Assembly: GCA_022801925.1 (NCBI GenBank)
Contig: JAAWTG010000027.1
Span: forward strand, 1-36,837
DNA length: 36,837 nt
Source of the DNA: Clostridia bacterium
GTDB lineage: Bacteria > Bacillota > Clostridia > RUG12999
Reading direction: 5' to 3'
Within the stretch, counting starts at the first letter, position 1; every line of letters starts with the position of its first letter. Shown here piece by piece: positions 14,834 to 36,837 of the stretch. The notes beneath the pieces are model-generated. The model searched no databases and was not told the origin of the DNA. It saw only the letters and a program-made list of their open reading frames with translations. The position numbers and the translations under genes are program-made.

Positions 14834-14930
14834 GTGTCGTTTCCCCTTAGCCCTCTCCGGTTTTATCTCCCCCCGTTTCTCGCGAAAATATCCCCCAATT
14901 GTCGCTCCAGCTACGCGTGCCACGGAGTGG

Positions 14931-15007
14931 TATATCTCCCTTGAAAATGTCCTCCGACTTTGTGCTTTGCACCAAGTCTCCCCCTCTTACTTTTCTTGGG
15001 AGATATA
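14931..15007 (-). repeat. Covarying palindromic element, copy a
   Basis: Terminal arms TATATCTCCC (14931-14940) and GGGAGATATA (14998-15007) are perfect complements. Read on the minus strand, the inside begins AAGAAAAGTAAGAGG and ends GGAGGACATTTTCAA, with a central hairpin GACTTGGTGC-AAA-GCACAAAGTC. The same inner flanks with different stems occur near 19233, 34853 and 36742. It lies between convergent operons. Confidence 0.75.
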
Positions 15008-15081
15008 GTCTCCGCTCTTTGCCCCCTGCCGCCTACGCTCTCGCTGCGCACCGCTATTGCGGTACCCCACGGCTGTGAGGT

Positions 15082-15114
15082 ATAAAAACTTCGGTACACG
15101 CCCGAAGTTTTTAT
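15082..15114. repeat. Perfect 13-base hairpin
   Basis: ATAAAAACTTCGG (15082-15094), a 7-base loop and the exact complement (15102-15114). It is A/T-rich at the base and GC at the top, so a bidirectional terminator is possible in this convergent gap. Confidence 0.6.
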
Positions 15115-15127
15115 GACCGGAAAGTTC

Positions 15128-15223
15128 GGAACTCCCCGCGTTTTTGGGTAACATTGCTCCAAAAAGTACAATCCGCGTCGCGGCAGCGACAAGGATAATC
15201 CCCCGCAGGGGAAAAACCTTTTC
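15128..15223 (+). repeat. Intergenic repeat modules, second copy
   Basis: This stretch repeats the modules at 7414-7453 and 7489-7540 almost base for base, but joined without the roughly 35-base insert found in the first copy. The rest of the 14834-15283 gap holds palindromes and no convincing gene. Confidence 0.7.
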
Positions 15224-15283
15224 GGTAGGAATAACGCTCCGCGCAGGGCAAGCGATAAAAAGAATTTTTGTGCTTTGTTTCTG

Positions 15284-15326
15284 AAGCAAAAGAGAGTCGA
15301 TTCTTAGAATCGACTCTCTTTTGCTT
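15284..15326 (-). terminator. 21-base perfect palindrome at the 3' end of the lyase gene
   Basis: Positions 15284-15304 and 15306-15326 are perfect complements with one central base; the core is AAAAGAGAGTCGA. It overlaps the stop codon of the heparinase-type gene. The outer T-rich arm can act as U-tract in either direction, so it is probably a bidirectional terminator. The core recurs at 9915 and 27335. Confidence 0.7.
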
Positions 15327-17245: not shown

Positions 17246-18730
17246 TCATTTTTTGTTCACAAACACCGGCGATACCCATGCATATTGCTCGTTTTTCTGC
17301 CGCACTTCCACATAATAAACATCATGCTCCGTCTGCGGCGTATCTTTGACATTCGCCTGAAACCGGTACGCCGTATCCGGCACTGCCTGATGCACCAGAC
17401 AGGCATGGCTGTTGTAGCTGTCCATATGCATGGAGCGGGAACTTTCCAGCAGTTCTCCCACTGTCACATTCATTTGCCGCCCGTTCACCTCCAGCGAAAG
17501 CGCCGTTTTGGGGCTGCCGCTGACAGTCAGATTCACTGCCGCTGTCGCCGGTACGGTGCTGGACGGATTTTTAAATGTCTCCGCTGTAAATTCCACGCTG
17601 TTATCGCTGCACACGGCAATATGGTTGCGGAGATTGTTCACATCATCGTCCGCTTTGTCTTTTTCTGCCGGCGAAAGAACATTGCGTCCGCGGAAACACG
17701 GTTCCGCGTCCAAAAATTTCCCGCCGCGCACGCACGCCGCACATTCCCATAGATATCCTTCCTCGGTGTTTTTGCCCCAGCCCAGTTCAATACGGATTTT
17801 ATAGTTCCCTTCCGTTTCCGCTGATTCCGGCTGATGGAACACATAGAGCGGTTTCAGGTTTTTATATAACGTAACGCTGTCGATAAAATCGCACGCTTCC
17901 ACGTTAATATCAATGTCGCGCGCGTCCGCTGTGATTTCGCTGCCCATGGGCGCGCCGTTGACGGAAAATTGGCAGCGGATTTTGTCCCCAGTGACCGCAT
18001 AGGTTCGCCGCTGCAAAATGGCGTCCCACACCGCTTCTTTTGTCGCTTCTTCCGCCCAGACCGCTGCGCGTCCGTCGCCATAACTGCCCGGGTAGCCTGC
18101 ATGATGGTCGGTGGACGCGACAAATCCGAATTTATATCCGCGGCGCAATCCTTCCCATGCTGTGCTGCGTCCGTCACGCGGTCCCATGGTGTGGTAGTAG
18201 GGATAGGGCGCGCCGTCCGACATGCCGCAGCCATGCTTGGAATAGACTTCCACCACCGGAGAAATGGTTTCATCAAATTCATCCCAGTTGATACCGCGGT
18301 ATCCCGGCGTGTAGCCCATGTGGTGGGGAATCACAATGCCAGGACTGGGCGACACATTTTCCAGCAAATTTTTGGGAGACGCAGATGGGATTAGTGGTAA
18401 GTGATTGTCTGTGGAAAGCAAATGATAGTCCCCATAGTGGGAGGAGTGCATTTCGTAGCCCTGAAAAGTGATGAACTCTTCCGCCGCCGCTGCCGCTACA
18501 ATCGCGCGGATTTCCTCCCAGCGCGCTTTCAGTTTGGCAAACCCTGCCTTGTGATAGTCCACCAGAAACGCGCGCTCCGGCGTGCGCTCCGGAATATCGG
18601 GCCACATCGCATGTCCTGTCACCATACAAAAATCCAATTGTTCCCGCGCCGCGGCAAGCGCATGTTCCAGACTTCCATATCCATAGGTCATGCCGCAATG
18701 GTTATGGATATCGCCAAACAAAAGTTTCAT
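17246..18730 (-). CDS. PHP-type metallohydrolase, DUF3604/CehA-McbA-like
   Basis: The 494-residue protein begins with the PHP metal motif FGDIHNHCG (His9, His11) and continues with VTGHAMWPD, a conserved GYEMHSSHYGDYH segment, IPHHMGY and ASTDHHAGYPGSYGDGR, all consistent with a trinuclear metal centre. The C-terminal about 230 residues are beta-rich and probably form Ig-like modules. DUF3604 proteins often sit in polysaccharide utilisation loci, but their reaction is not established. No signal peptide is present, so it is cytoplasmic like its neighbour. The start has AGGAGGATAACT before ATG. It is followed 31 bases later by the lyase gene, suggesting that the two act on the same substrate. 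The sequence gives no support for a classical nuclease or polymerase PHP role. Confidence 0.82.
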   Translation of the reverse strand: MKLLFGDIHNHCGMTYGYGSLEHALAAAREQLDFCMVTGHAMWPDIPERTPERAFLVDYHKAGFAKLKARWEEIRAIVAAAAAEEFITFQGYEMHSSHYGDYHLLSTDNHLPLIPSASPKNLLENVSPSPGIVIPHHMGYTPGYRGINWDEFDETISPVVEVYSKHGCGMSDGAPYPYYHTMGPRDGRSTAWEGLRRGYKFGFVASTDHHAGYPGSYGDGRAAVWAEEATKEAVWDAILQRRTYAVTGDKIRCQFSVNGAPMGSEITADARDIDINVEACDFIDSVTLYKNLKPLYVFHQPESAETEGNYKIRIELGWGKNTEEGYLWECAACVRGGKFLDAEPCFRGRNVLSPAEKDKADDDVNNLRNHIAVCSDNSVEFTAETFKNPSSTVPATAAVNLTVSGSPKTALSLEVNGRQMNVTVGELLESSRSMHMDSYNSHACLVHQAVPDTAYRFQANVKDTPQTEHDVYYVEVRQKNEQYAWVSPVFVNKK

Positions 18731-19129: not shown

Positions 19130-19160
19130 TGGAATGTCCGGACACGTGCCGGACATTCCA
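19130..19160. repeat. Perfect 12-base hairpin
   Basis: TGGAATGTCCGG (19130-19141), a 7-base loop ACACGTG, and CCGGACATTCCA (19149-19160). Confidence 0.65.
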
Positions 19161-19232
19161 TACCTCTCAGACGCGGGCGTTTTGATAGAAACGCCGCGAG
19201 AGCAAACGCGGCAGGGGGGCAAAGAGCGGAGA

Positions 19233-19401
19233 ATGTATTCTTCCAAGAAAAGTAAGAGGAGGAGCGGGGGCAAGAACGGAAGATATTTCTCCCAAGAAAA
19301 GTAAAGGAGGAGGATTTTGACTATGTCAAAATCCGGGGGACATTTTCAAGGGAGAAATATCTGTAGTGGCGTTCGGGGGACATTTTCAAGGAAGAATACA
19401 T
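19233..19401 (+). repeat. Covarying palindromic element, outer part of nested copy c
   Basis: ATGTATTCTTCC (19233-19244) and GGAAGAATACAT (19390-19401) are perfect complements. Just inside are AAGAAAAGTAAGAGG and GGGGGACATTTTCAA, the conserved flanks of this family. The position of the central hairpin is occupied by a complete second element (19281-19362). Confidence 0.75.
19281..19362 (+). repeat. Covarying palindromic element, inner part of nested copy c
   Basis: AGATATTTCTCCC (19281-19293) and GGGAGAAATATCT (19350-19362) are perfect complements. Inside are AAGAAAAGTAAAGG, a perfect central hairpin GGATTTTGAC-TAT-GTCAAAATCC (19312-19334), and GGGGGACATTTTCAA. The central hairpin sequence is unrelated to that of copies a and b yet fully paired. 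Confidence 0.78.
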
Positions 19402-19477
19402 GCGGAGCGTACCTTGGGGGGACGATAACGACGGCGCATAAAACAAGCCGGAATAAGTCCCCCTTTTGAATACACTT

Positions 19478-21280
19478 TTATTTTTTCAGCAATTCATATA
19501 GCATTTTGCAAGCCTGTGCACGCGTTGCGTTTTGCTGCGGCTGGAAGGAACCGTCCTCCATACCGTTCACAATGCCGTTTGCCTGCATTTTACCAACCGC
19601 TTCCGCTGCATAGTCACTAATTGCCGCCGCATCGGTGAACGCTGCGCCTGTTCCACCGTCCAGCGAAACGCCCGCATACTGTGCGGCGCGCACGATAATC
19701 ACCGCCATATCTTCCCTTGTGATGTTGGCATTCGGACTAAATCCGCTGCCGGTGCCGTTCACAATACCACAGGCTGCCGCTGTGCACACTACATCATAGA
19801 ACCAGTCGCCCTGCACCACATCGTCAAACGCCACACTACCGGCATCCGCCGTAATTTCCAGCGCATTCACAATCATTTTCACAAATTCTGCGCGTGTCAC
19901 ACTGCTTTCAGGGTCAAACACGCCGCTTTCTTTACCATTGACCACACCGCGGTAATACAGGGCAAGAATGGGTTCCTGCGCCCATTCGGAACCTGCCAAA
20001 TCATAGAACACCTGCGTGTTCTCTGTGCCGGTACCGCTGCCCGTTCCGGTCCCGCTTCCTATCCCAGACCCTGTGCCGGAGGTCGTCGGAATACCCGTCC
20101 ATGAACCGCCTCCGCCGCTGCCGCCGCCATGTCCGCCTCCGCCCTGCGGCGGTGTTGTCGTAATCTTATCATCATCGTCTGTGCCCGCTGCATGTTCCTG
20201 CACCTTTGTCGCAAACTGCGTAGCAATCTCCGCCGCAGACGGCATGGTGAGTTTCATTAAATCGTTTATCACGCGCACCCGTTTCGCGTCTGACAACGCG
20301 TCATATGCCGTGAAATCAATGCCCAGTGTCGCCGCTTCCCGCCGCAGCACTTCCTGCATGGTACCGGACGCCGTGATATCATTGATATATCCAACCAGCG
20401 CCGCTTTTTCAAAAGATGCGCGTGCGGTCTGCACGTCCGCAAAATCTCCCTCCGCCGCTAACGCCTGATAGACAATCGTACGGTTCGCCGCTAAGTTGAT
20501 TTTTGCATAATTGCTGCCGTCTCCCATGGCAAATTGATAGTAGCTGCCATATTTTCCGATATATTCCTGCAATTTTGCCGCGTCTTTTGTGCTTTGCAGC
20601 AGTGCAAACGCTGCCGGCTGCTCAAACAGCCGCGCAATGCGGTTTGCGCTCGCCAAATTCTCTCCATCAATCGCCGGGTCGGCGTTCACAATCGCGCCAT
20701 AGATTTTTTCCGCTGCCGCACCGGTCAATGTTTTTTGTGCATCGTCCGCCAAATCGCCGTTCATACCCAATTTCACAGCAATGTCTTTCGTGAACATCTC
20801 CTGCAACGCTTCCGGCGATTTCACCGCCGCAATCGCACGCAGTACGTCCAATACATCGTTCCGGTTGGTGTAGTCAATCGTTCCGGTTTTGATGTCGCCG
20901 CACGCCAGAATAAACGGATATGCGCCCGTTTCGCCTTCCACGCCGTTCGGACCTTTGGTCATGTCAAATTCAATTTCAAATACACCGTCCTCAAAAGACT
21001 GCACGGTGTCTGTATAATATAGTTTTTCCTCCAGCACGTCCGTCGTTTGCAAAATGCCGCTCACATTGGTGCCGGGCACGAATACCATCAGCGTCACACC
21101 GGTTTCTTTCTTTGCCGTCAACGCGCCGGAAACGACGACAAATCCCGTTTCCACGTCCACATCAGGCACATCGATTTCTGCAAAAGCGCTGCCTGCTGCC
21201 AGCGAACCGACTGTGCATACCATCATGCATACCGCCGCTGCCAGCGCAATGAGTCTGCGTGCCAATTGATTTCTTTTCAT
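19478..21280 (-). CDS. Secreted surface protein with three C-terminal SLH domains
   Basis: The ATG at 21280 follows GGAGGG and opens a clear signal peptide (basic MKRNQLARR, hydrophobic core, cleavage near GSAFA); the 30 upstream in-frame residues are rejected. The 600-residue protein has a beta-rich N-terminal module (about 35-130, GFVVVSGALTAKKETGVTLMVF), a helical middle region, a low-complexity linker rich in Gly, Ser and Thr near 385-420, and three SLH repeats in the last 180 residues. These are marked by FDPESSVTRAEFVKMI, FSPNANITREDMAVII and FQPQQNATRAQACKML. SLH domains bind pyruvylated wall polymers, so this protein is wall-anchored. It follows the large LamG/X2 gene by about 100 bases and may help display a complex, though no cohesin or dockerin is seen. 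Confidence 0.9.
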   Translation of the reverse strand: MKRNQLARRLIALAAAVCMMVCTVGSLAAGSAFAEIDVPDVDVETGFVVVSGALTAKKETGVTLMVFVPGTNVSGILQTTDVLEEKLYYTDTVQSFEDGVFEIEFDMTKGPNGVEGETGAYPFILACGDIKTGTIDYTNRNDVLDVLRAIAAVKSPEALQEMFTKDIAVKLGMNGDLADDAQKTLTGAAAEKIYGAIVNADPAIDGENLASANRIARLFEQPAAFALLQSTKDAAKLQEYIGKYGSYYQFAMGDGSNYAKINLAANRTIVYQALAAEGDFADVQTARASFEKAALVGYINDITASGTMQEVLRREAATLGIDFTAYDALSDAKRVRVINDLMKLTMPSAAEIATQFATKVQEHAAGTDDDDKITTTPPQGGGGHGGGSGGGGSWTGIPTTSGTGSGIGSGTGTGSGTGTENTQVFYDLAGSEWAQEPILALYYRGVVNGKESGVFDPESSVTRAEFVKMIVNALEITADAGSVAFDDVVQGDWFYDVVCTAAACGIVNGTGSGFSPNANITREDMAVIIVRAAQYAGVSLDGGTGAAFTDAAAISDYAAEAVGKMQANGIVNGMEDGSFQPQQNATRAQACKMLYELLKK

Positions 21281-21335
21281 TGTTCCCTCCACCCGCTTTC
21301 TATCGTTTTCAGCCCTTCCGGCCGGTTCTTCTGTT

Positions 21336-21369
21336 TGTTTGGGAGGGACGCCGCGCCCGCTCCCAAACA
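21336..21369 (-). repeat. Hairpin between the two surface-protein genes
   Basis: TGTTTGGGAG (21336-21345) and CTCCCAAACA (21360-21369) are perfect complements with a 14-base loop and no T-run. It may stabilise or attenuate the mRNA between the large protein gene and the SLH gene. Confidence 0.5.
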
Positions 21370-21379
21370 CATCATTTCT

Positions 21380-34731: not shown

Positions 34732-34852
34732 TGCTCATTTTCGCAAAAAATCTGTCATTGCAAACTTTTCGGTCATGAAACCTTCGGACATGCCCTCCAT
34801 AGCACACGTGTATACCAAGAAAAGCAAGCGGCGGATCGGGGCTGAAAGCGGG

Positions 34853-34929
34853 GGGTAGTTCTCCCCCAAAAAAGTAAGAGGGGGAGGAGCCGTAGGCGAC
34901 GGAGGACATTTTTAAGGGGAGAACTACCC
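34853..34929 (+). repeat. Covarying palindromic element, copy d
   Basis: GGGTAGTTCTCCCC (34853-34866) and GGGGAGAACTACCC (34916-34929) are a perfect 14-base stem. Inside are AAAAAAGTAAGAGG and GGAGGACATTTTTAA. Further out, CCAAGAAAAGCAAG (34814) and GGGGACAATTTC (34942) look like remnants of an outer, decayed copy. The rest of 34732-35033 holds no gene. Confidence 0.75.
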
Positions 34930-35033
34930 GGAGCAACCTTGGGGACAATTTCATACCAAAGGATCGGAAACCTCGCTGCCGCTGCGTTTCCTAGTCCCTA
35001 TGCCGCTCCATGGCACGCGCCAAGTTCCTTCTC

Positions 35034-36540: not shown

Positions 36541-36720
36541 TTTATCCTTGTCGCTAATCGCGACACGGATTGCGATTTACTGATAAGCACTATCGTGTTT
36601 ATCATGTACTTTTGGAGCAAAAGGAACGTTTTCCCCTGCGGGGGAGTTATATCAGTCACGCAAGTGACTGATATGTACTTTTTGCCGACAAAAAGTACCA
36701 AAAACTTTCTGGCGTTCCGC
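36541..36720. repeat. Intergenic repeat modules, fourth copy (inverted)
   Basis: Positions 36541-36625 are the reverse complement of 7441-7520 with small differences, including the ACACGRTAGTRYTTATCAGT insert. Then follow a CCCCTGCGGGGG hairpin and a perfect GTACTTTTTG/CAAAAAGTAC palindrome (about 36675-36698). No gene is seen in 36436-36837. Confidence 0.7.
36649..36674. repeat. Perfect 11-base hairpin with GCAA tetraloop
   Basis: ATATCAGTCAC (36649-36659), GCAA, GTGACTGATAT (36664-36674). GNRA-type loops are highly stable in RNA. Confidence 0.65.
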
Positions 36721-36741
36721 TTCGCCCCCAATTGTCGTTAC

Positions 36742-36824
36742 GGATATTTACCCCTTGAAAATGTCCTCCGACTTTGTGCTTTGCACAAAGTCTCCCCCTC
36801 TTACTTTTCTTGGGGTAAATATCC
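36742..36824 (-). repeat. Covarying palindromic element, copy b
   Basis: GGATATTTACCCC (36742-36754) and GGGGTAAATATCC (36812-36824) are a perfect 13-base stem. On the minus strand the inside is AAGAAAAGTAAGAGG, a perfect GACTTTGTGC-AAA-GCACAAAGTC hairpin, then GGAGGACATTTTCAA. The inner part is nearly identical to copy a while the terminal stem differs. Confidence 0.78.
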
Positions 36825-36837
36825 TCCGCTCCTTTGC

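Follow-up and report, generated by a model that had tools for sequence, protein, structure and literature searches.

Palindromic repeats regularly nested within their own kind in the intergenic regions of a clostridial genus

A hairpin unit nested within a like unit

We describe a family of intergenic palindromic repeats of uncultured gut bacteria whose members are found regularly nested inside one another, and we favor, with modest confidence, a model in which a non-autonomous palindromic repeat enters runs of G; where the run is the one adjoining its own apex, the apex hairpin would be lost. The window (the whole stretch of 36,837 nucleotides analyzed) is contig C24 of a 2.95-Mb, 96-contig genome (G000), which we compared with the other two genomes of the genus (G001 and G002). 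All three are MAGs, and one of them is 85% complete. Positions 19233-19401 contain two hairpin units of like kind, one within the other, with perfect stems of 13 bp (inner) and 12 bp (outer). The features of this focal nest are as follows:

19214-19421, plus strand: outer unit, G-run to G-run, defined by sequence; the G001 ortholog is the outer unit without the inner one
19233-19244, plus strand: 5' arm of the outer stem (ATGTATTCTTCC), pairing perfectly with 19390-19401
19243-19263, plus strand: outer A box, found by pattern with no mismatch in its 17-nt core
19266-19379, plus strand: inner unit of 114 nt, from G5 to G5, occupying the position of the outer apex hairpin, defined by its junctions
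19281-19293, plus strand: 5' arm of the inner stem (AGATATTTCTCCC), pairing perfectly with 19350-19362
19312-19334, plus strand: inner apex hairpin (GGATTTTGAC-TAT-GTCAAAATCC, class ii), from sequence, apex classes and fold
19350-19362, plus strand: 3' arm of the inner stem (GGGAGAAATATCT), pairing perfectly with 19281-19293 over 13 bp
19375-19391, plus strand: outer B box with a G5 run at its start, found by box pattern
19390-19401, plus strand: 3' arm of the outer stem (GGAAGAATACAT), pairing perfectly with 19233-19244 over 12 bp

The nest is located between a gene matching DUF3604 (17246-18730, minus strand) and an SLH-domain gene (19478-21370, minus strand). Its two levels share an A box (CCAAGAAAAGTAA..) and a B box (GGGGGACATTTTCAAGG), and the inner unit is matched by our covariance model at 19262-19379 with 119.6 bits. 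RNA folding of 19215-19423 yields -65.5 kcal/mol, compared with a mean of -43.8 for shuffled sequences (z = -6.28), and none of 200 shuffles folds as well. The exact coordinates, the two perfect stems and the fold thus bear out the initial annotation, which had proposed an inner element nested in an outer one with conserved flanks at both levels. The multi-branched fold that it had also considered gives way to a ladder, with one pair of arms per level. Other palindromic repeat families occur in the same intergenic regions (at 19133-19161 and at other loci), namely GGAATGTCCGGACACGTGCCGGACATTCC, GTACTTTTTGGCGCAAAAAGTACC and CTCCCTTGCCTAAAGGGAGG.

Structure and covariation of the repeat unit

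The unit of about 110 nt consists of a G-run, a variable covarying stem, the fixed internal-loop boxes A and B, an exchangeable apex hairpin and a second G-run. In an alignment of 13 copies, its 5' half is composed of the G-run, CAAAGAGCGGAG, the variable stem, AA, GAAAAGT (the A box), AAGAGGRGGA and the apex hairpin, and its 3' half of CGGRGG, ACATTTTC (the B box), AA, the matching stem arm, CGTAGCGACAATT and the G-run. At the 5' foot of most stems stands GGAG, and at the 3' foot either GTAG or GGAG. The A and B boxes are almost invariant among the aligned copies. The stem arms vary from copy to copy and yet pair in 94.3% of cells, with both sides changed in 21 of the 32 pairs; none of 500 shuffles is as high, and when the partners are slid against each other, pairing is only 31-52%. 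The elements had initially been called covarying, and this description is correct at the level of the family. (A second alignment, A2, was set aside because of a duplicate row.) The unit as a whole forms one imperfect inverted repeat and so has the terminal inverted repeats that characterize MITEs, and it shows the covariation across copies that characterizes structured elements.

A second, tiny hairpin of about 17-19 nt (ACCCTCTGGGGCACGCGT or CCACTCCGTGGCACGCGT) is present within the stem arms of some main units: in copy a of the window (14907-14940 region), in loci L022, L126 and L033, and in both arms of L088. Comparison of L126 with L099 reveals it as a near-clean insertion. The unit at L010:1500-1690 is chimeric, with 5' and 3' arms of different stem types and an unpaired stem.

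Copies in the window and distribution of the family

Further copies and remnants in the window are the following:

About 14880-14895: B-like remnant of an outer unit beside copy a
14907-15029, minus strand: copy a, model match of 96.8 bits, 3' arm broken by a 19-nt mini-hairpin
34834-34946, plus strand: copy d, model match of 95.4 bits, flanked by remnants of an outer unit, a degenerate A box at 34815 and a B-like string at 34941
36725-36835, minus strand: copy e, at the contig end, model match of 122.4 bits

The string GGGGGATATTTTC beside copy a, flagged in the initial annotation as a sign of repeated nesting, is indeed B-like; it lies 59 nt from the first B box, and by our reading 19 of these nucleotides belong to the mini-hairpin insert, without which the distance is the usual 40. 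The outer remnants claimed for copy d are likewise present, spaced as in other nested pairs and kept in the sister genome G001.

The covariance model matches at least 50 places in this genome at E 0.01, and at E 0.001 at least 49, 35 and 15 places in the three genomes of the genus, these counts being lower bounds from 150 scored candidates per genome. Six genomes of two other genera gave no match at E 0.001 among the candidates scored, and the order-wide search covered the same 9 genomes. Among 84,980 species genomes, a collection that may omit the window's own genome, an exact pattern for the simple unit was found in 22 stretches, all in two MAGs of the genus. The family is genus-specific, with dozens of units, located between genes. 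A crude ORF-based count over the loci of G000 and G001 places 18 of 44 between convergent and 6 of 44 between divergent genes, the remaining 22 of 66 loci having no gene on one side. In this genome, 18 of 50 model matches lie within 50 nt of a contig end. A plasmid or phage origin was dropped, as neither collection contained a match; viral contigs contained no match to the exact pattern. A known RNA family was dropped as well, since Rfam 15 returned nothing above the gathering score except the window's tRNA (best weak match at the locus, E 0.67).

Nesting is regular in spacing and strand

We mapped 136 A boxes and 134 B boxes in the fetched loci of the three genomes using strict patterns, because looser ones gave false B boxes inside class ii apices; the stricter scan still includes one A-B pair at 12 nt. 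Neighboring A boxes within 80 nt of each other (n = 35) are spaced 49-55 nt in 33 cases, neighboring B boxes (n = 37) 40-42 nt in 35 cases, and A-B neighbors (n = 86) are mostly 42 or 34 nt apart. The two boxes are on the same strand in 172 of 174 neighboring pairs. Tandem units, in which a B box is followed by an A box, are present too (14 cases). In the 33 A-A pairs spaced 49-55 nt, there is never enough room for the outer unit's own apex, and hence the apex has been replaced, not merely displaced. Ladders reach five A boxes at the start of contig C49 in the looser scan, or six by reading, and the deepest ones extend to contig ends. The focal nest is one of few in which both stems are intact; elsewhere, outer arms are often eroded or replaced. 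The linker GAAAATGGGGGCAAGGAGTGTAAG recurs in nested pairs at three loci (L022/L088, L023/L093 and L096), which implies that nests are also copied whole and that copying of ready-made nests explains part of the pattern. Two nests are identical in two separately assembled MAGs (L016/L095 and L023(-)/L093).

Orthologous and paralogous sites with and without nesting

The focal site exists in three states: no unit (G002), an outer unit ending in a simple apex (G001) and the nest (G000). The sequence reads ..GGAGGAGCGGGCATAGCCCGCGGGGGACATTTTC.. in G001 and ..GGAGGAGCGGGGGCAAG...GGCGTTCGGGGGACATTTTC.. in G000. The G001 apex, GCGGGC-ATA-GCCCGC, is native, as the same apex class is found with other stems elsewhere, and the G000 linker GGAGCGGGGGC retains its first bases (GAGCGGG). 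These sequences favor a change from simple to nested, although G002, which lacks any unit, does not polarize the inner step. A second site, the C77/C49 locus, comprises two levels and a simple class ii apex in G001, and at least three levels in G000, the further ones located at that apex; the G000 locus was joined from two contig ends, and its arms are unequal, with four A and three B boxes. Among paralogs, the nested outer unit of L023(-) shares stem and flank with the simple copy L122/L151 and differs in the apex, and L088 and L025 form another pair differing at the apex. The initial annotation had envisaged insertion at the apex of a like element and suggested a search for empty outer elements in close strains. 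The outer unit of G001, with its own small apex hairpin, is such an element. Insertion is supported at two sites, with the amendment that the apex is replaced. Clean target duplication at the inner junctions is not demonstrable because G-runs flank every unit.

Among the sites compared, copy d, L016/L095 and L023(-)/L093 are conserved, and others differ or are absent. Single boxes are gained or lost as well: relative to L015 (G000), L109 (G002) contains an additional A unit, and B units differ between L126 and L099.

G-runs and a proposed mechanism

Nearly every unit has G-runs (G4-G6) on both sides. When the flanks were joined with one G-run, 31 of 47 queries gave a junction-spanning match, many of these being nested outer units; units with flanks below 70 nt or lacking two G-runs were excluded. 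By eye, at least six are clean single-run sites, at which the host repeat of the query occurs without a unit (L023+, L019, L105, L088-5969, L089-1580 and L101). The G-run could be either the target or part of the element. GGGGG starts 24 of 33 outer B boxes as compared with 22 of 69 innermost ones (Fisher p = 1.3e-4, on related, not independent, copies; identical copies were dropped first, and orthologs of differing sequence were retained); the run of the outer boxes may also come with the inner unit. Many linkers resemble what would remain of the two G5-carrying apex classes (GAGC.., GAGAAAAT/C..), as inexact products of collapse, with AAAAT or AAAAC found where AAAATTC would be expected. These data fit entry into G-runs, from which a uniform orientation would follow, but are equally what microhomology at G-runs would produce.

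From these comparisons we infer insertion of whole units, its direction in time, collapse of the apex as part of the process, and an enzyme. In our model, a unit would enter a G4-G5 run in one orientation and afterwards have a G-run on each side. In units of two apex classes, the B box itself begins with such a run, which adjoins the apex hairpin, and a unit entering this apex-side run would create a nest of the same orientation. The old apex hairpin would collapse or be removed in the same or a later step, a few bases staying behind as linker. Repeated entry could build ladders of four or more levels; recombination between copies may later swap apices and copy whole nests, and the repeated boxes may be lost one by one, on one arm.

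Our searches for a mobilizing enzyme covered the Y1 and reverse transcriptase families. A RAYT-type Y1 transposase (PF01797) was found in none of the three genomes of the genus, in a search whose controls were positive in 5 of 14 cases, and a REP system driven by RAYT/Y1 was dropped for this reason. Reverse transcriptases gave four matches (G000 C8, G001 C24 and C149, G002 C78). The contigs of all four are free of covariance model matches, and with three of the loci read, linkage to a reverse transcriptase was dropped. The match on G000 C8 (L165:1243-2382) is a 379-aa reverse transcriptase gene downstream of a gene that, from reading its sequence, we take to be ThiF-like; a match of the same size is present in G001. 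The locus catalogues contain no unit with long cargo. Tn3-type ends are inverted, and they were dropped as a model because the G-runs are direct.

Alternative explanations

A possible, if less probable, alternative is that a unit acquires the A-to-B segment of another copy, through recombination or template switching that uses the boxes and G-runs as anchors, so that nests can spread without transposition. The orthologous units L126 and L099, with the same stem and flanks and a wholly different apex, speak for such a swap. More than one apex class occurs with 11 of 41 distinct 11-nt 5' arms (9 of 39 without the two mini-hairpin arms) among 87 units, two with short upstream sequence having been excluded. 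The absence of the apex from every regular nest, the near-identical linkers at several loci and the L010 chimera of two stem types also agree with segment exchange. It leaves unexplained, however, how the first nest arose and why single units are found in host repeats that lack them elsewhere, and the boxes are just 15-25 nt, which is short for ordinary homologous recombination. Insertion with apex loss is favored over exchange of the A-to-B interior, and probably both act.

Selection on the helices for a cellular role, such as transcript stability, termination or protein binding, with nesting as by-product or tuning, appears improbable. The strong covariation, the invariant internal-loop boxes and the placement of 18 loci between convergent and 6 between divergent genes speak for such a role; but at many compared sites, presence, number of levels and apex vary between genomes that are 94% identical, and no Rfam family matches at the gathering score apart from the tRNA.

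Growth of one hairpin by tandem duplication and slippage, which the initial annotation had named as the outcome that would count against insertion, is very unlikely. Single A units come and go (L109 versus L015), as do B units (L126 versus L099), and the loss of single boxes looks like slippage between repeated A boxes. In intact nests, however, each level has its own matched arms, unlike those of the level outside it, and the stems of nested levels occur elsewhere as free-standing units. Slippage on one arm cannot make a matched arm on the other side and is thus refuted as the origin of nesting. Finally, an artifact of short-read assembly at repeats, to which the many matches at contig ends and the unequal arms of the one joined locus might point, is hardly credible, as the focal nest lies in mid-contig and two further nests recur unchanged in a second MAG.

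Relation to known repeats

Twintrons are introns inside like introns, with splicing chemistry. The clostridial units resemble them in that one element is inserted, time and again, into a part of another of its kind; nothing like splicing chemistry was seen here. Nested palindromes are already known from Volvox organelles, and REPs and MITEs are the nearest bacterial kinds. In Volvox carteri, short palindromic repeats in noncoding organelle DNA are 'in many instances' reported as one 'inserted within another palindromic repeat', building larger repeats of up to 633 nt, some of them at several places (PMC2670323). Our units are likewise short hairpin repeats in noncoding DNA, one inside another; unlike the Volvox repeats, which are those of organelles, they are bacterial, and they have a fixed nesting point, orientation and spacing, conserved boxes and variable stems (PMC2670323). 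The GC clusters of yeast mitochondria (GC42) are described as mobile palindromes with short flanking repeats, subject to merger and shuffling of units, with stand-alone and merged forms at one site in different strains (PMC4478555). All of these traits have counterparts here, including site states that differ by strain; the GC clusters are mitochondrial and are described as merging, whereas regular nesting over several levels is the feature of the clostridial units (PMC4478555).

Like REP/REPIN-RAYT systems, our units are dispersed intergenic bacterial palindromes, and GGAG or GTAG, which tags REPs, is present at the foot of most of their stems; REPs, however, are 20-40 bp long and associated with RAYT, whereas the clostridial units are about 110 nt, have covarying stems, nest in themselves and come from three genomes without Y1 (PMC3116915, PMC3733652). 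With bacterial MITEs they share small size, non-autonomy, intergenic location, inverted-repeat structure and short direct repeats at the ends; they differ in their modular apices, in self-nesting and in that the Y1 and reverse transcriptase searches identified no parent transposon, and their G-runs could be target or element (PMC10969869). The word 'nested' is absent from the main text of that review (PMC10969869), and among the open-access papers covered by our searches we found no account of regular self-nesting bacterial palindromes.

It is conceivable, though doubtful, that the repeats represent a class of bacterial mobile hairpins recognized by structure (conserved internal loops and a stem of free sequence), which targets the apex-side G-run of its own kind, replaces the apex and builds ordered Russian-doll hairpins without a REP-type transposase. 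If the proposed insertion is right, the nested palindromes known from organelles of algae and yeast would have a bacterial counterpart in this family, in which the nesting point is fixed and relatives have been caught both before and after nesting. The long-standing question of how short palindromes without genes spread and grow would become testable in a chromosome, and many contig breaks and fast-changing intergenic regions in these gut bacteria would be accounted for.

Rearrangements around the repeats

Larger composites are gained or lost as whole blocks: some 250 nt with a unit and the small palindromes around it (L149:16860-17138) are absent from L153 of G001, where the flanks are almost directly joined. 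The intergenic block at the right end of the window (36559-36837, L021:1-277) matches G001 C12:2204-2663, a different site beside the focal locus, and is absent from the orthologous site in G001. Copy a is located at a rearrangement (window 14994-15284 versus L089 of G001): its flanks are about 7 kb apart in G001, and part of the DNA between them lies on contig C95 in G000. This could reflect recombination between units or an assembly join. G000 and G002 are 97% identical at L015 (G000 C49), L095 and L109 (G002 C252), against roughly 70-91% at most other places compared, and such identity raises the possibility of recent transfer between species at these loci.
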